Below, piece after piece: positions 8,985-33,930 of a DNA stretch of 44,465 nt. The notes under the pieces are model-generated. The model was not told where the DNA came from, ran no database searches, and saw only the letters and a program-made list of their open reading frames with translations. Each line of letters begins with the position of its first letter. Position 1 is the first letter of the stretch. The stretch is taken from IMG/VR virus record IMGVR_UViG_3300012954_002158, positions 1-44,465 of that record. One strand, 5' to 3'. Made by a program: the position numbers and the translations under genes. The DNA is from a virus.

Positions 8985-9623
8985 ATGGCAGTAGAAAGTG
9001 CAACAAATGAAACCAAGAGTAAGTTTGGAGTTCCGGTAACGGGTGCTACTGGTTCCGGTATCTTGATGCCGAAACTGAAATATCGTTTTAGGGTTAGTTT
9101 TTTAAACAACTTTGGTGGTAGTCCAGAGGTTAAAATATTGACTCAAAACGTGCAAAACGTTACTAGACCTAAAATTACTTACGAAGAAATAATTATTGAT
9201 AGTTATAACTCAAGAAGTTACCTACAGGGTAAACATGCTTGGGAACAAATTACTGTAACAGTAAGGGACGATATAACTAACCAAGTGGCAAAAGCAGTTG
9301 GCTCACAGGTACAAAGACAGGTGAACCATTTCCAACAAACAACTCCAGCCGCAGGATCAGATTACAAATTTGATATGCAAATTGAAGTGTTAGATGGTGT
9401 TAATGCTGGTGCAACTGAAGTTTGGTTCCTTGAAGGATGTTTCCTAACTAACGTAGACTACAGTGATGGTGACTATGCTGTGAATGAGCAAGTTACAGTT
9501 ACTATGCAGGTACGTTATGATAACGCAACACACTATGAAGGTGATAACGATATCAACGGAAGAACAGTAGCAGGTAATCCGTTCCCAGAATCAGTAGATA
9601 CTGGATCAACAATCGGAGTATAA
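8985..9623 (+). CDS. gp19: Tail tube protein gp19
   Basis: The 212-residue protein has the compact beta-sandwich pattern of T4-like tube proteins: an LKYRFRVSFLNNFG start, NVQNVTRPKITYEEI, and QVTVTMQVRYDNA near the C-terminus. Hexamers of this protein stack to form the inner tail tube through which DNA is ejected, inside the gp18 sheath. A short Gly/Ser-rich C-terminal tail extends the T4-like core (163 residues in T4) by about 50 residues. Expression is from its own late promoter with a strong TAGGAG site. Unlike T4, gp19 is separated from gp18 by an inverted late gene and an early gene. Confidence 0.88.
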   Translation: MAVESATNETKSKFGVPVTGATGSGILMPKLKYRFRVSFLNNFGGSPEVKILTQNVQNVTRPKITYEEIIIDSYNSRSYLQGKHAWEQITVTVRDDITNQVAKAVGSQVQRQVNHFQQTTPAAGSDYKFDMQIEVLDGVNAGATEVWFLEGCFLTNVDYSDGDYAVNEQVTVTMQVRYDNATHYEGDNDINGRTVAGNPFPESVDTGSTIGV

Positions 9624-9648
9624 CCGATATTTTTGAGGTAGCTCTGGC

Positions 9649-10866
9649 ATGGAATTTCTGAAATTTTTAGGAAAAAACTCTAAAGATAAATTTTACGCCA
9701 GGGACTTCCGTAACAATTACAGATTTAGACCTGACGTCAATCCCCCACGTATCAAATTTGAAGGATATGTGAATTTTGTTTTTAACAGAGATTTGGCGTC
9801 ATTTCTAGATTTGGAAAATCATACTTTTAAAACAAACATTTCAAGTCTTGTTAGGACAGCAAAACTTCCAAGTGTTACTTTTAAAAACCAAGTAAAAAAT
9901 CAATTTAACAAAAAGAAAATAGTTGCTACAGGAGTAGAATATAATCCTGTAGAAATAACTGTCTTTGATACATTAAACAACGAATGGCTTATTGTGTTAA
10001 TGAGATATTTTTCCTATTTGTTTATGAACCCAAGAAACAGAAATGCAGAAGGAGATAGAGATGTACGAATGAATACAGATTTTATCGACGAAACAAAGGG
10101 CTCACAATTTGCTACTAGTGTTTTTAAAAGTAATGAAGCAGGATTAAATCTACAAAGAACAAAGCAGTTTTTTGAAAGAATAGATATAATTATGTATCAT
10201 GGCGGAAAAGGAGTCCAGTACAGTTTAACAGCACCCATAATTAATAGTTTTGATTTTGGCGATATGGATTATTCAACAAACGAATTTGTAGAGTTTAGTA
10301 TATCAGTAGATTACGAAAACTTTACAACATTTGATGTTGCTAATTTTGATTTAGGTGGTGTTGACTTAGATAGATTTGAAAAAGTCGTAGGACTAAACTT
10401 TGCAAGTGATGAAGTAATGAGTAAACCATTAGGCATACTTGATGATGGTGTAGATATGGCTTTCCTAGGTAATAGCACAAATGATGGAAGTGGAGGTACT
10501 GCACTAAGAACAGCTCAGCCATTAGATACCCCTATTAAAACTGACAGTGATGAAAGTCAGGCACAAACACAAAATTCAGATCCTAATAATACTAATAAAA
10601 CAGACTCTAGTGAAAAATCAGAGGTACAAGATGAAGGTCCCTCTAAACCTTTACCTAGTACATATAACCAAATAGATCTTCCTATATCTAACGATCCTTC
10701 TAAGAAAGTAGGTAAGTCATTATTATCCACAGCCATATTAGCAAAATTATCTGGACAAGATGTAGGCGATGCAGTCAAGAATTTTGCAATTACAGTAGTG
10801 GCAGATGCGGCTGAGAAAAAATTAGCAAATGTACAAAATGCACCTGAAAGAGGGGAAAGTGAATAA
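9649..10866 (+). CDS. Tube-like baseplate/tail protein (possible gp54-type tube initiator)
   Basis: The N-terminal ~250 residues of this 405-residue protein read like a tail-tube fold: repeated strands around SSLVRTAKLPSVTF, GVEYNPVEITVFDTLNN, APIINSFDFGDMDYSTNEFVEF-type segments and SVDYENF. The second half (from about residue 290) is low-complexity, rich in Asp/Ser/Asn/Gln (QAQTQNSDPNNTNKTDSSEK), and ends in a short helical region. A tube-fold protein next to gp19 is consistent with the gp54/gp48 class that nucleates the tube on the baseplate. A virion role is likely; the exact T4 equivalent is uncertain. It is 25 nt after gp19 with a TGAGGTAG ribosome site, and overlaps the next gene (TAATG). 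Confidence 0.5.
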   Translation: MEFLKFLGKNSKDKFYARDFRNNYRFRPDVNPPRIKFEGYVNFVFNRDLASFLDLENHTFKTNISSLVRTAKLPSVTFKNQVKNQFNKKKIVATGVEYNPVEITVFDTLNNEWLIVLMRYFSYLFMNPRNRNAEGDRDVRMNTDFIDETKGSQFATSVFKSNEAGLNLQRTKQFFERIDIIMYHGGKGVQYSLTAPIINSFDFGDMDYSTNEFVEFSISVDYENFTTFDVANFDLGGVDLDRFEKVVGLNFASDEVMSKPLGILDDGVDMAFLGNSTNDGSGGTALRTAQPLDTPIKTDSDESQAQTQNSDPNNTNKTDSSEKSEVQDEGPSKPLPSTYNQIDLPISNDPSKKVGKSLLSTAILAKLSGQDVGDAVKNFAITVVADAAEKKLANVQNAPERGESE

Positions 10867-11318
10867 TGCCAGAGTATATTGACACATCTACATCTTTATA
10901 TAATACATTTGGAAATGAAGTGTCTTATAAAATTGTTCAAGATACTTTAGTGGCATATATAGATAATGCAAGTGTAAAATTTCCATTACCTGAAGCAAGT
11001 TCAGAAATATTGGCAGAAATTGCCGCACCAAAAGATTCGCCAATAGACCCTTCAACATTATCTGTAATAGAAACAAAGTTACAAGCAATTGGTTTTAAGA
11101 AAAAAAATTCAATAGCAATGGCTAGAGTTTTAATAAAAGTTGCAGAAGTACAAGGAATACATCCTACCAGTTACTTTGAAATGAATGAAAATTCTCTTAA
11201 ATTGTCTGTAGATGCTTATGCGGCCATTAATTCTTTTAGGCCTGCAGGAAATAAAATAGATCTAAAAACACCTACATTAAACTCACGTAGCAAATTAAAA
11301 GCCCTTATCAAGCCATAA
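10866..11318 (+). CDS. Unknown protein, probable tail/head morphogenesis
   Basis: The 150-residue protein has no motif I recognise. It has an N-terminal part with mixed strands (YKIVQDTLVAYIDNASVKF), a Pro-containing linker near 60, and a helical C-terminal half (ARVLIKVAEVQGIHP). Its start overlaps the stop of the tube-like gene (TAATG), so it is translationally coupled to it and presumably produced late. Position between a tube-like protein and gp4 suggests a structural or assembly role. Confidence 0.6.
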   Translation: MPEYIDTSTSLYNTFGNEVSYKIVQDTLVAYIDNASVKFPLPEASSEILAEIAAPKDSPIDPSTLSVIETKLQAIGFKKKNSIAMARVLIKVAEVQGIHPTSYFEMNENSLKLSVDAYAAINSFRPAGNKIDLKTPTLNSRSKLKALIKP

Positions 11319-14311: not shown

Positions 14312-15907
14312 ATGGCAAGAGGAACAGCAGATACCAGTCTGGTTAAACCAGGCTACTCAAAAGTAGCATATACACCAGATACTATAGACGATTTTAAGAA
14401 CTGTGCAAATCCAGATACAGGTCCTCTGTATTTTATGACAAATCATGTAAAAATACAACATCCTACTCAGGGCGGTATAGATTTTGATCCTTTTAGTTAC
14501 CAATTAGATTTAATTCATAATTACAATAACTACAGATACAGTATCAATATGCTGGGCAGACAAATGGGTAAAACTACTGTGGCGGCAGGATATTTGTTAT
14601 GGTATGCTATGTTTAAGCCTGATAGTACAATATTAGTTGCGGCTCATAAACAGGCAGGTGCCCAGGAAATAATGCAACGTATTAGGTATGCATATGAAAG
14701 TGTACCTGATCATATTAGAGCAGGTGTAACAGAATACAACAAAGGCAGTATAAGTTTTGACAATGGTAGCAGAATAGTAGCAAGTACAACTACAGAAAAT
14801 ACTGGTAGGGGTATGTCACTTACCTTAGTGTACTTAGACGAGTTTGCTTTTGTACCTCCCAGAATTGCAAGTGAGTTTTGGACAGCATTATCTCCTACAT
14901 TAGCAACAGGTGGTAAATGTATTATTACAAGTACGCCTAATAGTGATGAGGATACATTTGCAACTATTTGGGGTCAAGCAAATAAATTATTTGATGAACA
15001 TGGCAATGAGCAAGAATTAGGTGTTAATGGATTTAAACCATTATTAGCAATATGGGACAAACACCCAGACAGAGATGCCGCCTGGGCAACAGAGGAACGT
15101 GGCAGAATAGGAGAAGAAAGATTTAGACGTGAGCATGAATGTGAATTTATTATATATGATGAAACACTTATAGATCCACTTAAACTAGTTGAAATGGATG
15201 GTGTAGAACCTAGATTAAGAATGGGTAATGTTAGATGGTATAAACAACCAACACACGATAACATTTATTTGGTTACACTTGATCCTAGTTCAGGCACAGG
15301 TGGAGACAATAGTGCTATACAAGTATTAGAAGTACCTAGTATGGAACAAGTAGCAGAGTGGTACCATAATAAATCCCCAATAGAAAAACAAATGAAAGTA
15401 ATGATGGAAATTATGCATTACATCAAAGAGCAAACAAACAGTTTATCACAAATATACTGGACAGTAGAAAATAATACTATTGGCGAGGCGGCACTTGTAG
15501 TAATTAGAGATACAGGTGAAGAAACATTTCCAGGCGACTTTTTACACGAGCCTAAAAGAATACAAGGCAAAAAAGGCAGAAAGGGTTATCATACAACACA
15601 CAAGAACAAAATGGAGGCCTGCTTACAACTAAAAAGATTAGTAGAGAGCGATAAATTAAAATTAAAAAGTAAAGCATTAGTAAGTGAACTTAAAAATTTT
15701 GTTAGTTCAGGTAACAGTTTTAAAGCAAAACCAGGTGCCACAGATGACTTAGTTATGGCACTAATTATTGCTGTAAGGATGACAGAATATATTAGTGCAT
15801 TTGAAGATGACGTTTACAATGCAGTAAACAGTAGTTTATCAGTTAATCCAAATGATCCAGATTCATTAGATGATTCAGATTACCCTATGCCTATTGGACT
15901 TTTATAA
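14312..15907 (+). CDS. gp17: Terminase large subunit gp17
   Basis: The 531-residue protein has the packaging ATPase Walker A GRQMGKTT (82-89), Walker B VYLDEFAF (about 172-179) and the coupling segment IITSTPNSDED. It then has a C-terminal RNase H-fold nuclease with VTLDPSSGTGGDNSA (Asp near 324) and TDDLVMALIIAV (Asp near 485). gp17 cuts concatemers and pumps DNA into the prohead through the portal. Length is slightly below T4 gp17 (610). No ribosome-binding site is present; the late octamer sits 5 nt from the ATG. Its stop overlaps the next start (TAATG). Confidence 0.95.
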   Translation: MARGTADTSLVKPGYSKVAYTPDTIDDFKNCANPDTGPLYFMTNHVKIQHPTQGGIDFDPFSYQLDLIHNYNNYRYSINMLGRQMGKTTVAAGYLLWYAMFKPDSTILVAAHKQAGAQEIMQRIRYAYESVPDHIRAGVTEYNKGSISFDNGSRIVASTTTENTGRGMSLTLVYLDEFAFVPPRIASEFWTALSPTLATGGKCIITSTPNSDEDTFATIWGQANKLFDEHGNEQELGVNGFKPLLAIWDKHPDRDAAWATEERGRIGEERFRREHECEFIIYDETLIDPLKLVEMDGVEPRLRMGNVRWYKQPTHDNIYLVTLDPSSGTGGDNSAIQVLEVPSMEQVAEWYHNKSPIEKQMKVMMEIMHYIKEQTNSLSQIYWTVENNTIGEAALVVIRDTGEETFPGDFLHEPKRIQGKKGRKGYHTTHKNKMEACLQLKRLVESDKLKLKSKALVSELKNFVSSGNSFKAKPGATDDLVMALIIAVRMTEYISAFEDDVYNAVNSSLSVNPNDPDSLDDSDYPMPIGLL

Positions 15908-16569
15908 TGCAAAGAAAAACTGTAAACGATTTAATTTTAAATACCACAGCAATAAACAGTTTAGGCTTATACGGTAAACAATGTAAAACTAATTACTACA
16001 TAGACCCTGAAAAGTTTTTGGATTGGGTTTACGATAATTTTAAATTTGTACAGTATAATCCAAGGAAAAAAGTCGATAGAGAAGGATTAAGTATAACAAG
16101 TTTAGATGGTGGATTAGGTGGTATTCCTGATTTAGATAGTTTAAGGGAATATAATCAGCAACATGGTACTAATTATGATGAAAAAGACTTTAAAACTAGG
16201 ACTCCTGTTGCAGAATATCCAGAGCTAAAGCACATTTTAGATATATTTGGTGATAGTTTATTTAGATGTCATATTCTTAAAATTAATCCAGGTGGATTTT
16301 TTCCGCCACACAGAGATCATAATACACCTTTTATAGACAGTTTTAGGCTTATTATGCCATTACAATATGTGAATCCCCCATTTTTTAATTTTGTAATTGA
16401 TGAGGATATTACACATTGGGACACAGGATTTTTATACTTTGCAGATACCACTAAAGCTCATTATTTGTTTAATTGCGGCGATTTACCTAGTTACTGGATA
16501 GTATTTAATGTTGAAACAAGTATAGAAAATGTTCAAAAAGTTTTAGGCAACTTATCAGTAAAGGTATAA
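15907..16569 (+). CDS. 2OG-Fe(II) oxygenase-like protein C
   Basis: The 220-residue protein has a jelly-roll hydroxylase pattern: PGGFFPPHRDHNTPF (His135-x-Asp137), core strands SFRLIMPLQY, and a distal His185 in TTKAHYLFNC followed by YWIVFNVE. It is in the same broad class as the two proteins at 165-1197 but is not a close copy. It is translationally coupled to gp17 (TAATG) and so would be made late, during packaging. A structural-protein or DNA substrate is possible, and neither is shown by the sequence. Confidence 0.65.
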   Translation: MQRKTVNDLILNTTAINSLGLYGKQCKTNYYIDPEKFLDWVYDNFKFVQYNPRKKVDREGLSITSLDGGLGGIPDLDSLREYNQQHGTNYDEKDFKTRTPVAEYPELKHILDIFGDSLFRCHILKINPGGFFPPHRDHNTPFIDSFRLIMPLQYVNPPFFNFVIDEDITHWDTGFLYFADTTKAHYLFNCGDLPSYWIVFNVETSIENVQKVLGNLSVKV

Positions 16570-22824: not shown

Positions 22825-23868
22825 ATGAAAAATAAAAGAGACTTTGTTAAGATCAAGAATGGCATACATAGAAGTAAGCCAGTCACAGACGCAATTTTCC
22901 CTTTACTTAAAGGCGTATCGTATGGTAAACGTGGTGCATTTGTAACAGTTGATGCAACTGCTTTAATGGGTGCAGAGTTTACAAAAATTAGAGTATTAGT
23001 AGATTCTCCTAATGAGGTTGTACCAGCAACTGAACAGGAATACAATAACTTTATACCTGAAAACATGAAGCCTAAAAAGAAAAAGGAAACTACTAAACAA
23101 GCAATGGATAGAATTGCTGAAAGATTTAGAATCCTTGATGAGATGACTGATGCAGTTGCTAACGGTGTTGTTAGAGGACTTATTGTATCAGGCCCTCCAG
23201 GTGTAGGTAAAAGTTTTGGTGTAGAAACTATTCTTGAAGAATATGATGCAATGGCTAAAATTGGTGGCCAAGTGAAAACTGAAATTGTAAAAGGGTCAAT
23301 GACGCCAATTGGTTTATATCAAACACTTTTTAACAATTCTAACGAAGGAGACATTCTAGTTTTTGATGACTGTGATAGTGTCTTGTTTGATGAAGTTTGC
23401 CTAAACATGCTTAAAGCAGTTTTAGATAGTGGTAAGAAAAGAACTATTAGTTGGAAAGCAGAATCCAATGCACTAAGACGTGAAGGTGTGCCTGACAGAT
23501 TTGACTTTAAAGGTGGTTGTATCTTTATTACTAACGTGAACTTTGAAAATGTTAGAAGCAAAAAGATTAAAGATCACTTAGAAGCATTAATGAGTAGATG
23601 TCACTACATTGACTTAGGAATGGATTCTATAGACGATAAATTTATTAGAATTAACCAAATCGTTAGAGATGGTATGTTGAAAGAATATGGCTTCTCAAAA
23701 GATTTTGAGAAAGAAATAATTGACTTTATGCATGAGAACGCAGAAAGGCTAAGAGAGATATCATTAAGAATGGTTCTTAAGATAGCCGATCTTGCAAAAA
23801 TGAACTTTGATAACTGGAAGGGGTTAGCAAGATCAACATGTATGAGAAGGTTCAATATCTACTCGTAG
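22825..23868 (+). CDS. AAA+ ATPase, early gene
   Basis: The 347-residue protein carries Walker A GPPGVGKS (about 123-130), Walker B ILVFDDCD (about 176-183), a sensor-1 IFITN and LMSRC near 256-260. The last resembles the SRC motif of clamp-loader ATPases. The N-terminal 100 residues are a separate domain ending in a basic linker (KPKKKKETTK). It is not a standard gp44, so I call it only an AAA+ ATPase acting on DNA or a protein partner. It has its own promoter, with a GGGAGG ribosome site. It is followed by a cluster of hairpins that should end the transcript. Confidence 0.8.
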   Translation: MKNKRDFVKIKNGIHRSKPVTDAIFPLLKGVSYGKRGAFVTVDATALMGAEFTKIRVLVDSPNEVVPATEQEYNNFIPENMKPKKKKETTKQAMDRIAERFRILDEMTDAVANGVVRGLIVSGPPGVGKSFGVETILEEYDAMAKIGGQVKTEIVKGSMTPIGLYQTLFNNSNEGDILVFDDCDSVLFDEVCLNMLKAVLDSGKKRTISWKAESNALRREGVPDRFDFKGGCIFITNVNFENVRSKKIKDHLEALMSRCHYIDLGMDSIDDKFIRINQIVRDGMLKEYGFSKDFEKEIIDFMHENAERLREISLRMVLKIADLAKMNFDNWKGLARSTCMRRFNIYS

Positions 23869-23942: not shown

Positions 23943-23970
23943 AAACCCCCAAATCTTTTGGGGGTTTTCT
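23943..23970 (+). terminator. Intrinsic terminator before the receptor gene
   Basis: AAACCCCCAAA (23943-23953), loop TCT, TTTGGGGGTTT (23957-23967), then TCTT. It ends 10 nt before the next -35 element. Confidence 0.85.
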
Positions 23971-23980
23971 TATAAAACTG

Positions 23981-24008
23981 TTGACAAAAACAATAACTCA
24001 TGTATAAT
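23981..24008 (+). promoter_or_regulatory. Sigma70-type early promoter for the TonB-dependent receptor gene
   Basis: TTGACA (23981-23986), a 16-nt spacer and TATAAT (24003-24008). The sequence CATGTATAATTA around the -10 recurs at the primase promoter (35763). Confidence 0.85.
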
Positions 24009-24047: not shown

Positions 24048-26051
24048 ATGAACGAATTTGATAAGAATTTTCATCTTAATTTTTCGCCTCTATATGCTAC
24101 ATTTGTTATCATGTTGCTTATGTTATGGGCAAGTGAAGTTAAAGGTGACGAGATAGAAGAAATTGTTGTTACTGCTCAACAAGAAAAAACTGTAAAAGCA
24201 GATCCACTTATTGACAATAGACTTATAGAGGCCATTATGCCTATGTTTACATATAACGCAGGTGGATATGGAGGTTTTATAGGTTATAGCGAAAGAGGTG
24301 CTCAAACAAATCATACTGCTGTATTTGTAAATGGTATTCCAGCAAATGATCCAGGTGCAGGTTGGTATGATTTTGGACATGATTTTGCAAATGGACAAAC
24401 TGTAAAAGTTATTACAGGTGCAAACGGAGTCATTTATGGCTCTGGTAGTATTGCAGGAACAATATTAATACAAGATACTATAGAACGTGGAATGAATATT
24501 AGATTGGACGGAGAGCCCAAGCAATATAGAATAGCACCTTTAGAACAGTTAGAGTTCAGTATGGTAGAAGATAATTTTGCTAGTGCTAGAAATGATAACG
24601 AAGAAATAGATACTTACAGCAATAAAACTGCAAGAATAAATGTTGACTTTGGTGATTTTAATATTGTAGGAAAGTATTCAGATTATGAATATGATTATGA
24701 TAATTGTTATGATTATTATTGGGGTCAAAGTAATGATTGCTTACAGGACGGTGAAAGGTATAATATTGCTATAAGAAATGATTTTATGACTATAGGTAGA
24801 AATTATAATACTGCAGATTACTTTACTGTTGAAGATCCTACTTATACAAATGAAAGTTATAGGGATTTTATTAGATTAGGCAATCATATGGAGTTAAGTA
24901 AAAATCTAAGTGTAGCATTTGGCTTAGATGCAGAAAAAATTTACTATAATACTAACAGTTGGAATAATACTGAAGGCTCATTAGAAGTTAAAACAGAAAT
25001 TACAGAGCCTGGTATATCATATGAAGATGACGATACTAATAAATCAAGACCATTATGGACAGGAGGATATATTGGTACTGGTGAATTTTTAACATCATAT
25101 GTTGGAGATGGTAATTTTGAAATAGTGCAAACAGAAAACAAATACACTGATGATAATGCCGGCATTTATTTTTCAGCAAATGCAAATTTTATATTAAATT
25201 ATAACTTTGGTGTAAGACTAGGTAATGACAAACAAAATGCTCTTAGACTAGGTATATCTAAAGGAGAGTGGTTCTTTAATGCAGGTAATAGTTTTAGAAA
25301 GCCTAACTTATATGAATTGTTTGGCGATAGTTATGTAGAAGGAAACTTAGAACTAGAACCAGAAGAAGGTGTAGGTTTTGAATTAGGATACGGAGCAATT
25401 AGTATCTTTATGTATGATTTTAAAGAAGCAATCGAATATGTACCTGGTTACAATACTGCAATTGATACAACTAGTTTAGAACTAGACGCAGAAGCAACAC
25501 TTTATGTTGATACTGAAAATCCAGAAAATAATGGACCAGGTATAGGTTGTGTTTTAAATCCTAACTGGACAGAAAATGATGCGGCAACTTTTGAGTTAGA
25601 TGGTTGTATTTACAAAACAGTAACTAATACAGAAAACATTTGGACAATGGCTTCTTATCAAAATACAGGATCATATACTACACAAGGTATAAGATATGAA
25701 AACAATTTTGGGCCTGTTGGATTGATGTTAAATTATACAGACACAGATCAAACTAGGATACCTGAATTTGCAGGAGTTTTAAGTTTACAACATAACTTGT
25801 ATGGATATAATTTAAAATTAAACTATGCAGTACAATTAGACAGAGAGCCTGGACCTTATGACTTTTTAACAGATGGAAAAAAGTATTTAGATGATTTAGA
25901 AAAACTTGACTTTAATGTTTCAAGAAAATTTACAAACGGTGTAAGTTTAGCATTTAAGATAGAAAATGTTACTGATGAAATTGTAGAGGTTACTCCTTTT
26001 TACGATAGTAGAGGAAGAGAAGTTTACTTGACATTAGGGTACAAGTGGTAG
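24048..26051 (+). CDS. TonB-dependent outer-membrane receptor-like protein
   Basis: The 667-residue protein has a hydrophobic signal segment (about 14-29) and a probable cleavage near residue 33. A TonB-box-like EEIVVTAQ (37-44) follows. The plug domain (about 50-160) contains VNGIPANDP and VITGANGVIYGSGSIAG, typical TBDR plug motifs. A beta-barrel fills the rest, with FRKPNLYELFGD (about 415-427) and GNLELEPEEG, classic TBDR barrel motifs. It ends in the aromatic C-terminus YLTLGYKW expected of BAM-assembled barrels. Cys pairs (near 223/233 and 505/522) look like loop disulfides. It would sit in the host outer membrane and import a TonB-dependent nutrient, or alter phage adsorption. Base use resembles neighbours. 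A GGAG site and its own early promoter support expression. Confidence 0.85.
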   Translation: MNEFDKNFHLNFSPLYATFVIMLLMLWASEVKGDEIEEIVVTAQQEKTVKADPLIDNRLIEAIMPMFTYNAGGYGGFIGYSERGAQTNHTAVFVNGIPANDPGAGWYDFGHDFANGQTVKVITGANGVIYGSGSIAGTILIQDTIERGMNIRLDGEPKQYRIAPLEQLEFSMVEDNFASARNDNEEIDTYSNKTARINVDFGDFNIVGKYSDYEYDYDNCYDYYWGQSNDCLQDGERYNIAIRNDFMTIGRNYNTADYFTVEDPTYTNESYRDFIRLGNHMELSKNLSVAFGLDAEKIYYNTNSWNNTEGSLEVKTEITEPGISYEDDDTNKSRPLWTGGYIGTGEFLTSYVGDGNFEIVQTENKYTDDNAGIYFSANANFILNYNFGVRLGNDKQNALRLGISKGEWFFNAGNSFRKPNLYELFGDSYVEGNLELEPEEGVGFELGYGAISIFMYDFKEAIEYVPGYNTAIDTTSLELDAEATLYVDTENPENNGPGIGCVLNPNWTENDAATFELDGCIYKTVTNTENIWTMASYQNTGSYTTQGIRYENNFGPVGLMLNYTDTDQTRIPEFAGVLSLQHNLYGYNLKLNYAVQLDREPGPYDFLTDGKKYLDDLEKLDFNVSRKFTNGVSLAFKIENVTDEIVEVTPFYDSRGREVYLTLGYKW

Positions 26052-26057
26052 TATAAT
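26028..26057 (+). promoter_or_regulatory. Sigma70-type promoter for uvsW, leaderless arrangement
   Basis: TTGACA (26028-26033, inside the receptor gene), an 18-nt spacer and TATAAT (26052-26057), then ACAGT and the uvsW ATG at 26063. Initiation about 6 nt after the -10 would fall on the start codon. Confidence 0.7.
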
Positions 26058-26062
26058 ACAGT

Positions 26063-27520
26063 ATGGCAAAATGTGTTTTAGAAATTAGAGACGAGGTAAA
26101 TGTTCGTTTCAAAGGACTTGATGTAAAAGCAAGGCGTAAAATTTCTGATGCCTGTAAATATTTCCTACCTCATGCCTATCACATGCCTGCATACAAGTTG
26201 GGTAGATGGGACGGTTGTGTTAGGTATTGCGACATTGGTGGCAGAACATATTTTCATTTACTAGATAAACTAGTTCCAATTATTACTAATGAGGGTTATG
26301 AAATTGAAGTAGTTGATCACAGAAAGGCTTGGGACTTTAATTTTGATCCTGTAACTCAAACGAGTTATGATAATGTTAAATGGCCTAAAAAACATCCAGC
26401 AGAAGGCGAGCCTATAATACTGAGAGACTATCAGGTTGAGATTATTAATCGCTTTTTGGAAAACACACAATGTTTACAAGAGATTGCCACAGGTGCAGGT
26501 AAAACACTTATTACTGCCGTGCTAAGTCATAAATGTGAACATTATGGCAGAACAATAGTTATAGTACCAAACAAAGATTTAGTGGTACAAACAGAAAAAG
26601 ACTACAAAAACTTAGGCCTTGATGTGGGTGTATTGTATGGCGATAGAAAAGAATATGATAAAACGCACACTATTTGCACATGGCAAAGTTTAAGTATATT
26701 AGAAAAGAAAAGTAAAAACTATGAAGCAGACTTTCCTATAGATGAATTTTTAGACGGAGTTGCCTGTGTAATGGTGGATGAAGTACATAAAGCAAAAGCA
26801 GATGTACTTAGAAATTTACTTAGTGGTGTATTTGCTGGTGTTCCTATTAGATGGGGACTAACAGGTACTATTCCTAAGGAAGAATATGATGCAGTAGGTT
26901 GTACTTGTAGTTTAGGACCTGTTGTAGGAAAAATGAGCAGTAAAGAGTTACAGGACATGGGTGTACTTGCAGACTTAGATATAAGTATTTTGCAATTACA
27001 AGATGGAATGATACAATTTGGAAACTATGCTCAAGAGTTGAAATGGCTTGTTACTGATGAAAAGAGGCTAAAAGAAATATCTGAAATTATAAAAGGTGTT
27101 GCTGTTAATGGTAACACTTTAGTTTTAATAGATAGAATAGCAACAGGAACAAGACTAGAAGAATTAAATCCAGATTGGGTGTTTGTATCAGGTTCAATGA
27201 AACAAGCAGACAGGCAGGAAAATTATGATGATGTTTCTGAAATGGATAATAAAGTAATAGTAGCAACTTATGGAGTTGCGGCTGTGGGTATTAACATACC
27301 CAGAATTTTTAACTTAGTAATGTTAGAACCTGGAAAAAGTTTTGTTAGAGTAATACAGAGTATAGGAAGAGGTATTAGAAAAGCCTCTGATAAAGACTAT
27401 CTTAATGTATTAGACGTAACAAGTAATTTAAAATACAGCAAAAGACATTTAACAAAACGTAAGCAGTTCTATAAAGAGCAAGGATTTAGGTTCCAAGTTA
27501 CTAAAGTTGATTACAAATAA
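26063..27520 (+). CDS. uvsW: UvsW DNA/RNA-DNA helicase
   Basis: The 485-residue protein is a superfamily 2 helicase: Walker A ATGAGKT (about 142-148), DEVH box VMVDEVHKAK (about 239-242), motif III LTGTIP, motif V GVAAVGINIP and motif VI QSIGRGIRK. The N-terminal domain with LGRWDGCVRYCD matches the UvsW DNA-binding region. T4 UvsW unwinds R-loops and regresses forks, switching from origin to recombination-dependent replication. No Shine-Dalgarno precedes the ATG, and the -10 is 5 nt away, so a leaderless transcript is predicted. It heads a long run of tightly packed plus-strand genes to 34496 with no further clear promoter. Confidence 0.93.
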   Translation: MAKCVLEIRDEVNVRFKGLDVKARRKISDACKYFLPHAYHMPAYKLGRWDGCVRYCDIGGRTYFHLLDKLVPIITNEGYEIEVVDHRKAWDFNFDPVTQTSYDNVKWPKKHPAEGEPIILRDYQVEIINRFLENTQCLQEIATGAGKTLITAVLSHKCEHYGRTIVIVPNKDLVVQTEKDYKNLGLDVGVLYGDRKEYDKTHTICTWQSLSILEKKSKNYEADFPIDEFLDGVACVMVDEVHKAKADVLRNLLSGVFAGVPIRWGLTGTIPKEEYDAVGCTCSLGPVVGKMSSKELQDMGVLADLDISILQLQDGMIQFGNYAQELKWLVTDEKRLKEISEIIKGVAVNGNTLVLIDRIATGTRLEELNPDWVFVSGSMKQADRQENYDDVSEMDNKVIVATYGVAAVGINIPRIFNLVMLEPGKSFVRVIQSIGRGIRKASDKDYLNVLDVTSNLKYSKRHLTKRKQFYKEQGFRFQVTKVDYK

Positions 27521-28038: not shown

Positions 28039-28806
28039 ATGGCAAAATATAGATATAGAATAGAAGGCGGCAGATATGGAGGTGAGCTTGTATGTGGAGA
28101 AGTAAATCCTGCATTTGCAAGTCATTATGCAGGTTCAGATGAGCAAGAATTAATAGAAGCAGTATTAGAATCTGAAGATTATGAACCTAATGAAGATGAG
28201 GATAATGATACATTATTAGATCCAGAAGGGTTACCTCACCCAGGTTTACCAGGCGAAGATTACTATATGTGGGAAAATGATGGTATAGAGCATCTAAACG
28301 CACCTTATTCAGATGGCGGCTTTACAGTATATGAAGTTCCAGCAGACGAATCAGATGATTGGGATTACGATAAAGAAGTATATGAAGGCGACGGAATTTT
28401 TGTGTATGGTAGAGAAGGTGCTTTATTTGGTTCAGATGAGCCAGAAGTTATAAATGAAGAAGATGACAAAGGTAATAAGTATGTGCCTGTTTTAGCATTT
28501 CATAGTTCTGAAAAAGGATCTTTTGGTGCCTGGTTTGTAGATACAGATGAACCATTTGATGAATTTAAATTGGGCTATGGTGTTGTAGAAACAAATCTGT
28601 GCGAACTTGTTGATGCTGTTTACTATGACAAGCAAGAATTAGACTGCAATTATGATTATAACGACACAACCGGTAAAAGTTATGGTGCTGATGTAGGTTG
28701 GTTAAATATAAAGTGGCATGATAGCCAGGAAAACGTTGCAGAAAATATGGAAGAGTACTGGCAAGAGTTTGACGATAACGTTGAATGGGAAAAGGAAAAT
28801 AGATGA
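28039..28806 (+). CDS. Highly acidic hypothetical protein
   Basis: The 255-residue protein contains roughly 30% Asp plus Glu by eye, with clusters such as YEPNEDEDND, ADESDDWDYDKE and INEEDDKGN, and many aromatic residues. It has a small folded-looking N-terminus (KYRYRIEGGRYGGELVCGEV). It has an ideal AGGAGGT ribosome site and overlaps the kinase gene by 4 nt (ATGA), so substantial expression is likely. Acidic early phage proteins can mimic DNA, but I see no family match and this is only a possibility. Confidence 0.7.
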   Translation: MAKYRYRIEGGRYGGELVCGEVNPAFASHYAGSDEQELIEAVLESEDYEPNEDEDNDTLLDPEGLPHPGLPGEDYYMWENDGIEHLNAPYSDGGFTVYEVPADESDDWDYDKEVYEGDGIFVYGREGALFGSDEPEVINEEDDKGNKYVPVLAFHSSEKGSFGAWFVDTDEPFDEFKLGYGVVETNLCELVDAVYYDKQELDCNYDYNDTTGKSYGADVGWLNIKWHDSQENVAENMEEYWQEFDDNVEWEKENR

Positions 28807-29603
28807 AACGAATCTTAATTTTTGGTTTACCTGGTTCAGGTAAATCTACTCTTGCAGAAAAACTAGTTGAAGTATTAGGAAACGCAGACTGGCACAACGC
28901 AGATAAGATAAGAGAAACATTTAACGATTGGGATTTTTCTCAAGAAGGTCGTGAACGTCAAGCCTTGCGTATGCGAGATTATGTTCGCAAAAGTGTTGCT
29001 AAAAAGAAATATGGTATTGCAGATTTTGTTTGCCCAACAAATCAACTAAGGGAAAAACATGTTCCAGAATATGTTATCTGGATGGATACTATAGAAGAAG
29101 GAAGATTTGAGGATACAAATAAACTTTTTGAGCAACCTGACGGTACAACATTCATTAATGCAAGAATTACTGCTGAGGAGTGGTGGACAGAAGAAAAATG
29201 TGAGGAATGGGCAAAGTTATTAGCAGTTGATATTAAAGATCATGAGTTTCAACCAAAGCAACCAACTACACAAATGTTAGGAAGATTTCAGCCTTGGCAC
29301 GAAGGACATCAAAAACTATTTGAAAGAGCATTAGCAAAACATGGGCAAGTAGCAATACTGGTCAGAGATATGCCACTAACTGATGATAATCCTTGGCAAG
29401 TGGATAAGATATGTGAAAATATAGAAATTGCATTGGCCAATCATGCAGGTAAGTTTAGATGTTATCCTGTCCCTAATATAATGAATATTACTTACGGCAG
29501 AGGTGTAGGATATAAAATAGAAGAAGAAGTTCTCGACGAGGAAACACAAAAAATAAGTGCAACAAAAATTAGAGAACAAATGAGAAAGGATGGCGAATTA
29601 TAA
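28803..29603 (+). CDS. Fusion: APS-kinase-like P-loop kinase plus HIGH-type nucleotidyltransferase
   Basis: Residues 1-145 of this 266-residue protein are a P-loop kinase with GLPGSGKST (8-16) and NADKIRETFNDWDFSQEGR, the arrangement of adenylylsulfate kinases. Residues 155-266 are a nucleotidyltransferase with GRFQPWHEGH (160-169, a HxGH motif) and SATKIRE (252-258, the ISSTxIR motif). Similar two-domain architectures include NadR-type NMN adenylyltransferase/kinase and bifunctional sulfate-activation enzymes. Which substrate is used cannot be decided. It sits upstream of metK and apt, in what looks like a nucleotide/cofactor cluster. Confidence 0.75.
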   Translation: MKRILIFGLPGSGKSTLAEKLVEVLGNADWHNADKIRETFNDWDFSQEGRERQALRMRDYVRKSVAKKKYGIADFVCPTNQLREKHVPEYVIWMDTIEEGRFEDTNKLFEQPDGTTFINARITAEEWWTEEKCEEWAKLLAVDIKDHEFQPKQPTTQMLGRFQPWHEGHQKLFERALAKHGQVAILVRDMPLTDDNPWQVDKICENIEIALANHAGKFRCYPVPNIMNITYGRGVGYKIEEEVLDEETQKISATKIREQMRKDGEL

Positions 29604-30235: not shown

Positions 30236-31324
30236 ATGTATCAATTTACAAGTGAAAGTGTCAGTAGAGGGCACCCAGATAAAGTTGCAGATCTAATATC
30301 AGATGCTGTTGCAACACATCTAATTGATAAAAACGTAAATCACAGAGCCGCAGTGGAAACTTTAGTAACTACAAATATGGTTACACTTGCTGGAGAATAT
30401 AAAAGCGACAAGTTTGATAAAATTTATTTAGATAAACTTGTTAGAGAAATAGTTAGAGATATTGGCTATGAGCAAAATGGATTTCATTGGGAAAAATTAA
30501 AAGTTTATAACGAATTACATGGCCAAAGTCCTGATATTGCATTAGGCACTGATAATTTTGGTGCTGGAGATCAGGGACTAATGTTTGGATATGCATGTAA
30601 TGAAACTGAAAACTATATGCCAAGTGCAATACATTATAGTCACAGAATACTGCAACGATTACAAGACGTAAGGCAAAGTAGTTCGTGGATACTTCCTGAC
30701 AGCAAGGCACAAGTTACAATGAGTTATGATGGTATAAACAATCCTGTTAGTATAGATAAAATTGTTTGTAGTACTCAGCACGAAGAAGCAATTGATATTG
30801 CAGATGTAAGAGTGTATATTGAAGAACTAATAAGAAAAGAAATTACAGAATATGATTTAAGCAATACAGAATTTTTAATAAATCCTACAGGTAGATTTGT
30901 TATTGGCGGTCCAGATGGCGATACAGGATTAACAGGCAGAAAGATCATTGTTGATACTTATGGTGGTTATGCACCACATGGCGGAGGTGCTTTTAGTGGA
31001 AAAGATTGCACTAAAGTTGATAGAAGTGCGGCTTATATGGCTAGGTATATAGCAAAAAACGTAGTAGCAAGTGGCAGATATAAAAATTGTACAGTACAAT
31101 TAAGTTATGCTATTGGAATAAAGGAGCCAACAAGTTTATACATTTATGCAGACGGAGAAGTAAGACCTGAACTAACAGCACAGATACAAGAGTTAGTTGA
31201 TTTAACTCCAAAAGGAATAATTGATAGATTTAATTTATTTGATTTAGACTTAAAAAGGACAACAAATTATGGACATTTTGGCAAAAGTGATTTGCCTTGG
31301 GAGGAAATAAACTTATGGACATAA
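30236..31324 (+). CDS. metK: S-adenosylmethionine synthetase MetK
   Basis: The 362-residue protein shows the complete family pattern: SESVSRGHPDKVAD (catalytic His13 and Asp15), NFGAGDQGLMFGYA (about 108-121), GGPDGDTGLTGRK (about 222-234) and YGGYAPHGGGAFSGKD. It makes S-adenosylmethionine from methionine and ATP in the cytoplasm. Length is near that of the bacterial enzyme (384 in E. coli). GAGGTAAA precedes the ATG. It overlaps apt by 10 nt. A phage-borne MetK would supply methyl donor or counter host SAM depletion, which is inference. Confidence 0.93.
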   Translation: MYQFTSESVSRGHPDKVADLISDAVATHLIDKNVNHRAAVETLVTTNMVTLAGEYKSDKFDKIYLDKLVREIVRDIGYEQNGFHWEKLKVYNELHGQSPDIALGTDNFGAGDQGLMFGYACNETENYMPSAIHYSHRILQRLQDVRQSSSWILPDSKAQVTMSYDGINNPVSIDKIVCSTQHEEAIDIADVRVYIEELIRKEITEYDLSNTEFLINPTGRFVIGGPDGDTGLTGRKIIVDTYGGYAPHGGGAFSGKDCTKVDRSAAYMARYIAKNVVASGRYKNCTVQLSYAIGIKEPTSLYIYADGEVRPELTAQIQELVDLTPKGIIDRFNLFDLDLKRTTNYGHFGKSDLPWEEINLWT

Positions 31325-31854
31325 AAGAAAGTATAAGGACAGTACCTGATTTCCCTAAAAAAGGAATACAGTTTAGGGATATTACAAGTATGCTAGAAAG
31401 CCCAGAAGCCTTCAACAAAGCACTTATAGACATGACTGCTGAGTGTATGATGTTTGAGGCAACAAAAATAGTTGCGATAGAAAGCAGAGGATTTTTATTT
31501 GGTTCCCCACTTGCTAGAGATATGGAATTACCTTTAATACTTGCAAGAAAGCCTGGAAAGTTACCCAATCCTACATATCAAAGAAATTACACATTAGAAT
31601 ATGGAGAAGCAACATTACATATACAACAAAATAGTAATTTAAAGCCAAAAGATAAAATTGTAATTATAGATGATTTAATTGCAACAGGCGGAACAGCAAT
31701 GGCATTAGCAACTTTGATAAGTCAATGTTGGAGTGTACCTAGAGAAAATATATTAATTCTGGCCGCAATAGACTTGATTGATCTTAAAGGTAGTGCTATA
31801 ATACAGGATGCAGGATTTAATGTACAATCACTTATTGAATTCGAAGGAGAATAA
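31315..31854 (+). CDS. apt: Adenine phosphoribosyltransferase-like protein Apt
   Basis: The 179-residue protein begins DIKESIRTVPDFPKKGIQFRDIT, the typical Apt start. It has AIESRGFLFGSPLA, ARKPGKLP, and the PRPP-binding loop IIDDLIATGGTA (about 117-128). It would convert adenine plus PRPP to AMP. The ATG at 31315 is preferred because GGGAGGA lies upstream; a TTG at 31297 would only add six residues. It overlaps metK and is coupled to the next gene (TAATG). Pairing with MetK suggests recycling of adenine released from SAM-derived nucleosides, which is inference. Confidence 0.9.
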   Translation: MDIKESIRTVPDFPKKGIQFRDITSMLESPEAFNKALIDMTAECMMFEATKIVAIESRGFLFGSPLARDMELPLILARKPGKLPNPTYQRNYTLEYGEATLHIQQNSNLKPKDKIVIIDDLIATGGTAMALATLISQCWSVPRENILILAAIDLIDLKGSAIIQDAGFNVQSLIEFEGE

Positions 31855-32985: not shown

Positions 32986-33272
32986 AAGAACTAACAGAAA
33001 AAGTATCGCAATGGCACCATGATAGAAATCTTATTGATGGTGCAACCAGTAAAGATCAAGTTTTAAAATTAATACAGGAAGTTGGAGAGCTTTCAGATAG
33101 TGTATGCAAAGGAGAAGATGTTAAAGATGACATTGGAGACTGTTTAGTTATATTAATTAATATAGCAGAGCGAGAAGGTACAACACTTGAAGAATGCTTA
33201 GAAGTTGCATATAATGATATTAAAGACAGGAAAGGTCGTATGGTGGATGGCATATTTGTAAAAGATGAGTAG
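32982..33272 (+). CDS. mazG: MazG-like nucleotide pyrophosphohydrolase
   Basis: The 96-residue protein has the all-alpha MazG metal site: E33-V-G-E36-L in the second helix and D49-D-I-G-D53 in the next. These enzymes hydrolyse NTPs or dNTPs to monophosphates, and phage MazG is proposed to alter host nucleotide or ppGpp pools. Length is that of the single-domain phage form. It overlaps the zinc-finger gene by 4 nt and the next gene by 8 nt. Confidence 0.88.
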   Translation: MKELTEKVSQWHHDRNLIDGATSKDQVLKLIQEVGELSDSVCKGEDVKDDIGDCLVILINIAEREGTTLEECLEVAYNDIKDRKGRMVDGIFVKDE

Positions 33273-33930
33273 TTTTGAAAATATATTACAATTTGGTCCT
33301 AAAGTTGGTCATATAAAATTATCTAATGATGAGTCAAAAGAATTATATGGTATTTGTTTAGATTCAACTGATGATTTTAGACAAGGACTAGTTGGATTTA
33401 TTTTAGAAGAAAAAAATATTACAGCAAAATTTAAAACATCTAAAGTCTATAATAAAATAAAAAAATACTGTAATGATTATTTAAAAGAAGTAGACCCTGG
33501 ATATTACAAAAATATAATAGAAAAAGAAAATTTTGATGATATTTTTGATTGCACTAAAGCATGGTATAATAAACAAGTTCATATGGAGCATAATCCTTTA
33601 CATAATCATTTTAGAACTGCTGATTTAGTTACAGTTATATATCCTAAAATAATATTAGATGAAAAAGATAACAATTTTATAGTTAATAAAACTACTAATA
33701 AAAAACAAACAGGACAGATTAATTTTGTTTATGGTACGCAGAATGATTTAAATGGATTTGGAAGCACAGAAATTTGCTTAGATCCACAAGAGGGAGACTT
33801 ATTAATTTTCCCAGCAACCTTATCACATTATACAACACCTGTATTAGGTGATAGTGTAAGATACAGTATAAGTTGTAATTGGTCAATACATACACATATA
33901 AAAAGATTTGCACATAAAGAGATAAAATGA
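33265..33930 (+). CDS. 2OG-Fe(II) oxygenase-like protein D
   Basis: The 221-residue protein has the pattern of the 2OG-FeII_Oxy_5 group: AWYNKQVHMEHNPLHNHF with His113/His115, a core strand LVTVIYPKI, EGDLLIFPATLSHYTTP with distal His188, and DSVRYSISCNW with Arg199. The expected HxD is HxH here (HNHF), so iron binding is not assured; if the Asp is truly missing the protein may be catalytically altered. It overlaps mazG by 8 nt and the next gene by 4 nt. Substrate unknown. Confidence 0.6.
   Translation: MSSFENILQFGPKVGHIKLSNDESKELYGICLDSTDDFRQGLVGFILEEKNITAKFKTSKVYNKIKKYCNDYLKEVDPGYYKNIIEKENFDDIFDCTKAWYNKQVHMEHNPLHNHFRTADLVTVIYPKIILDEKDNNFIVNKTTNKKQTGQINFVYGTQNDLNGFGSTEICLDPQEGDLLIFPATLSHYTTPVLGDSVRYSISCNWSIHTHIKRFAHKEIK

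Follow-up and report, generated by a model that had tools for sequence, protein, structure and literature searches.

Auxiliary genes of phages encode mostly soluble enzymes, and a phage gene for a TonB-dependent outer-membrane receptor (TBDR) raises the question of what such a protein imports, or prevents, on behalf of a virus. The gene considered here lies in a 44,465-base virus record, the whole of which was analysed and is called the window below. The original prediction recognized a complete TBDR in this DNA and left its ligand open among iron, cobalamin and others. The receptor assignment stands, and the evidence now narrows the ligand by pointing to cobalamin, through a match to the vitamin B12 receptor BtuB and through bacterial relatives that are linked to riboswitches.

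A complete TonB-dependent receptor

The reading frame at 24048-26051 on the plus strand begins with ATG, encodes 667 amino acids and is a complete TBDR, in which the elements previously read from the sequence were all found, namely the signal segment, the EEIVVTA box, the motif RKPNLYELFG (residues 417-426) and a C-terminal Trp. Its parts are as follows.

24048..26051, plus strand: TonB-dependent receptor gene, BtuB-like, 667 aa (Pfam Plug; AlphaFold2 model with VIA-align; family profile against the PDB)
24048..24146, plus strand: signal segment, residues 1-33, likely cleavage after VKG (read from the sequence; AxA-type sites there in relatives)
24156..24176, plus strand: Ton box EEIVVTA, residues 37-43 (kept in 33 of 33 aligned relatives)
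24237..24461, plus strand: plug domain, residues 64-138 (Pfam PF07715)
24519..26048, plus strand: beta-barrel, about residues 158-667, 22-23 strand elements (AlphaFold2/DSSP model; BtuB alignment)
24594..24611, plus strand: acidic motif DNEEID, residues 183-188 (family alignment; joint alignment with BtuB)
24684..24740, plus strand: motif YEYDYDNC...C, residues 213-231 (family alignment; joint alignment with BtuB)

A plug-profile search and a barrel strand count had been proposed as checks on this assignment, and both agree with it. The Pfam Plug profile PF07715 matches residues 64-138 (E 1e-8; 36.1 bits, cut-off 23.9), and an AlphaFold2 model built from 33 relatives (pLDDT 76.6, pTM 0.71) can be aligned to TBDRs of solved structure from residue 36 to 667, its predicted barrel having 22-23 strand elements by DSSP. 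The solved structures in the Foldseek and VIA-align lists for the model are TBDRs. Signal segment and Ton box are kept across the family, and export and cleavage are predicted. The first 16 residues, MNEFDKNFHINFSPLY (24048-24095), which occur in relatives L001-L015 too, are conserved far beyond the needs of a signal peptide and are poor in positive charge. Ordinary signal peptides are found in other clades of the family.

The phage setting and the insertion site

The window contains a T4-type terminase, a gp32-like protein, a RecA/UvsX-like recombinase and a tail sheath, and the nearest named phages are PA5oct (terminase 59%, uvsW 55%) and Phosso (terminase 52%, uvsW 56%). The source phage is a jumbo myovirus related to PA5oct, a member of the Arenbergviridae. 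No TBDR adjoins uvsW in PA5oct, and a tblastn search of named phages with the window receptor found none in any. The flanking genes, as originally described, are an AAA+ protein and a uvsW-type helicase.

22825..23868, plus strand: AAA+ protein, phrog_1250, upstream edge of the site
23943..23967, no strand assigned: terminator-like stem between the AAA+ gene and the receptor gene
23981..24008, plus strand: sigma-70-type receptor promoter, TTGACA-N16-TATAAT (12 of 12 consensus positions)
26028..26057, plus strand: uvsW promoter, overlapping the 3' end of the receptor gene
26063..27520, plus strand: uvsW-type helicase, downstream edge of the site

The claim that the receptor gene has a promoter of its own is borne out by the full sigma-70-type match. 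Perfect promoters stand upstream of the AAA+, receptor and uvsW genes, with four in the window against 0.1 expected, and a promoter matching at 11-12 of 12 positions lies just 5' of the receptor gene in 16 of 30 family members, against 0.15 expected.

Scans of IMG/VR viral contigs found 66 and then about 220 stretches encoding relatives of the receptor, 80 of the latter being kept. Because these loci had been chosen for the receptor, occupancy of the site was judged on loci fetched also by uvsW and by the AAA+ gene. Among 65 distinct loci that cover the AAA+ gene and uvsW, the receptor lies between them in 55. Ten lack it, and in nine of these only about 100 bp separate AAA+ from uvsW; in the five empty sites that were read, a TTGACA box accompanies a terminator-like stem. 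Other arrangements occur: the receptor precedes the AAA+ gene in L018-L020, and in 15 loci it has relocated to a position 3-6 bp downstream of a PNP_UDP_1 nucleosidase gene (L003-L008, L014, L070-L073, L075, L085, L096 and L109), the nucleosidase-receptor pair being flanked by large opposite-strand genes in L004 and L014.

Likeness to BtuB

In both sequence and structure the phage receptor comes closest to BtuB, the receptor for vitamin B12. The model superimposes end to end on BtuB (2guf) with a Z of 31.6 and 2.5 A over 461 residues, and BtuB fills the first 11 rows of the VIA-align list; it does so again for a second model, of a shorter member 41% identical to the first (L038, Z 32.5). In the PDB the family profile has a full-length match to BtuB at 5e-20, the next family following at 0.0085, and hhalign pairs the family with E. 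coli BtuB (b3966) at a probability of 98.8. A family profile was needed for this match, since phmmer with the single window receptor found nothing in the PDB. Among NCBIfam models, the top match of the window receptor is a vitamin B12 receptor model, hit weakly in three separate stretches, the C-terminal one with the highest score, and weak matches to heme and transferrin receptor models follow. For four other diverse members, too, the top-ranking models are TonB-B12 or BtuB ones; the matches mostly extend across the entire protein and stay far below the curated cut-off. The name BtuB-like, rather than BtuB, is used because all scores are under the 599.7-bit cut-off of the TonB-B12 equivalog TIGR01779 (30.3 bits for the window receptor, 27-47 for the others). 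The phage protein differs from BtuB further in its identity of about 18% in the structural alignment, in being phage-encoded under a phage promoter, and in the invariant cysteines of its YEYDYDNC...C motif.

That motif and a second one, RNDN-E-x-D, are kept among the phage receptors, and in a joint alignment the two acidic motifs fall on loops 3 and 2 of BtuB, respectively. Three of the five residues of the BtuB calcium cage, presumably D179, D193, D195, D230 and D241, have a clear counterpart by alignment, E186, D188 and D218 of the phage receptor pairing with D193, D195 and D230; the pairing in the first motif is less sure, as hhalign shifts RNDN-E-x-D by three residues. In BtuB, two calcium sites lie in a five-aspartate cage beside the B12 pocket, and the loop-3 residues Y229 and D230 touch B12 (PMC7360065). 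Both motifs, including the cysteines (as DNC...NDC), are present in the bacterial receptor L147.

Bacterial relatives and the choice of ligand

The family profile was run against 398 genomes of one bacterial phylum, and the best 30 loci were scanned with Rfam. A cobalamin riboswitch lies upstream in 25 of these 30; among 20 control TBDRs drawn from this set of genomes, 2 have one (Fisher p 3e-7), a contrast that is conservative because one of the two positive controls, L198, is itself matched by the family profile. In the order to which genome G375 belongs, an AdoCbl-II riboswitch accompanies 13 of the 14 best further loci. The listed genomes of that order measure 1.0-1.5 Mb; the order may be Pelagibacterales, and the phages of the receptor lineage appear to be marine. 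The btuB gene of E. coli likewise stands behind a cobalamin riboswitch; upstream of the phage receptor gene none was found, a further difference from BtuB. Riboswitch-controlled receptors such as L147 and L149 are the closest bacterial sequences to the phage receptor, and L147 has its motifs in common with it, whereas the phage proteins group apart, in a clade of their own with a long branch and a weakly supported sister.

These relatives bear on the idea that a scaffold derived from BtuB here serves to import something else, such as heme, an iron-siderophore or some other large nutrient. TBDR ligands switch easily in evolution, and both the low identity to BtuB and the weak heme and transferrin receptor matches would suit such a change of cargo. 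It is nevertheless an unlikely reading, given that the nearest bacterial relatives are controlled by cobalamin riboswitches and that siderophore and heme families score far lower.

Genes for SAM and B12 metabolism near the receptor

Two genes downstream in the window are possible functional partners of the receptor.

30236..31324, plus strand: methionine adenosyltransferase, MetK (TIGR01034, 434 bits; cut-off 309)
31297..31854, plus strand: adenine phosphoribosyltransferase, Apt (NF002636, 182 bits; cut-off 125)

MetK lies 2-6 kb from the receptor in 41 loci, Apt stays near it in most loci, and a PNP_UDP_1 nucleosidase is near it in 48, counts that are not independent events because the loci share descent. 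The best matches of the nucleosidase are nucleosidase and MTA/SAH nucleosidase models, below their cut-offs. The neighbourhood points to turnover of S-adenosylmethionine (SAM), and a B12 gate that supports the provision of methionine and SAM, or serves B12 enzymes, would be coherent with it; the adjacency of MetK, Apt and the nucleosidase may also have other causes. In L062 the gene about 12 bp behind the receptor (9494-10942) encodes a B12-binding radical-SAM protein, and such proteins occur in three large phage records as well. Phage-encoded proteins of this type were seen in L140, L142 and L062, one of them KedN5-like. A B12-dependent ribonucleotide reductase was considered as a motive for B12 uptake and rejected, the phage enzyme being of class Ia.

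A search of 13 related phage records, several of which are fragmentary, revealed no TonB gene, so transport through the receptor would need the TonB of the host. Elsewhere in the window, a kinase of phrog_10255 (28803-29603) has a C-terminal stretch resembling nicotinamide-nucleotide adenylyltransferase, weakly NadR-like, and is a possible NAD salvage enzyme. An oxygenase-like protein similar to Asp/Arg hydroxylases (15907-16569, just under cut-off) and a 2OG-Fe(II) oxygenase (33265-33930) are also encoded.

Descent and allele exchange

The suggestion that the gene has resided long in these phages, rather than arriving recently, agrees with its phylogeny. In trees with bacterial TBDRs all phage receptors fall into one clade (100/100) on long branches, with L149 as a weakly supported sister (92/56). 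No close relative emerged from pattern scans of 84,980 bacterial and archaeal genomes, in which plug matches of 34-35% were the best, although short patterns can miss distant genes, and the whole-profile search of the 398 genomes gave nothing better than 1.8e-18; recent transfer from host to phage was rejected on these grounds. Each of 14 phage records examined for Plug matches has exactly one, and close receptor pairs have dN/dS values of 0.08-0.22. The receptor is under purifying selection, which together with the single clade and the occupancy of the site speaks for long residence. The gene has several attributes of a viral auxiliary metabolic gene, namely a host-type function, a genuine virus contig and maintenance by selection; a benefit to the phage through host metabolism is predicted.

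Within this constraint the receptor changes quickly. Its median identity over 71 loci is 50%, as against 78% for uvsW, and its loops are the most variable parts, with large insertions and deletions. The window and L045 share uvsW at 96% and the receptor at about 51%, whereas L103 and L113 show the reverse, with uvsW at 79% and the receptor at 95%. Such discordance between pairs indicates that receptor alleles have been exchanged at a fixed site.

Surface proteins that come under attack commonly exchange alleles, and phages are known to use TBDRs as receptors. It is conceivable that the protein serves as a surface decoy or exclusion factor that binds or blocks rival phages and bacteriocins using TBDRs, or ties up TonB, with transport secondary. 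The exchange of alleles and the variable loops would be expected of such a factor, but the strict conservation of the Ton box, the plug and the BtuB-type motifs goes beyond what a decoy needs, and SAM-turnover genes lie near the receptor. A primary role as decoy is accordingly improbable, although fast change and allele exchange fit transport and decoy roles alike.

That the gene is bacterial contamination or a decaying passenger can be dismissed almost entirely: TBDR matches in the named-phage collection do mostly resemble bacterial DNA deposited as phage, but contamination is rejected here by synteny and clean empty sites, by the terminase, recombinase and tail sheath of the window, and, with decay, by the low dN/dS and the single phage-only clade. 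Three records filed as phages, AFYI01000005, AGRM01000004 and CAKLQH020000002, contain bacterial TBDR genes, next to 16S rRNA in two cases, and look bacterial.

A proposed role in infection

The receptor is probably a BtuB-type, TonB-dependent B12 importer that was acquired long ago by jumbo T4-like phages and raises B12 uptake during infection. Host sigma-70 polymerase would transcribe the gene, host Sec and BAM would export the product, and the receptor would couple to host TonB-ExbBD, as no phage TonB was found. It would then bind cobalamin or a close corrinoid and increase B12 uptake in the infected cell. The vitamin could serve B12-dependent methionine synthesis by the host and, through it, the formation of SAM by the phage MetK, with by-products recycled by the phage nucleosidase and adenine phosphoribosyltransferase; the receptor may also supply B12 to phage B12-binding radical-SAM enzymes. 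Several observations count against a B12 function: the TIGR01779 score (30 against 600 bits), the lack of a riboswitch, the class Ia ribonucleotide reductase, the three of five calcium-site counterparts, and a pace of change and allele swapping that suits other surface roles. The broader proposal, that a virus-restricted family of B12 importers is standard in a widespread jumbo-phage lineage and forms, with MetK, the nucleosidase and Apt, a viral supply line for SAM, is put forward tentatively, as a possibility with somewhat less than an even chance of being correct.

The only strong match of the receptor among viral structures is the TBDR of the marine megaphage Mar_Mega_1, a SusC-type protein for which carbohydrate uptake was proposed (PMC9723777). 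Like the window receptor it is a TBDR of a large phage, but it is of the SusC type, with 11% identity in the structural match and no reported link to B12. No description of a phage BtuB-like receptor was found in open-licence papers, where this SusC-type protein was the sole phage TBDR report found, and a conserved, phage-only BtuB-like family was likewise not found there. A PHROG to which no function is assigned, phrog_5687 (760 positions), matches the plug of the receptor at 6e-11, and a second phage TBDR family may thus be unannotated.

B12 is a scarce vitamin in many waters. If the proposed role is correct, viruses control the intake of the infected cell through an outer-membrane vitamin gate that is kept throughout a lineage, and B12 can limit phage production. 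The idea that the receptor imports B12 is open to direct test with a single gene.
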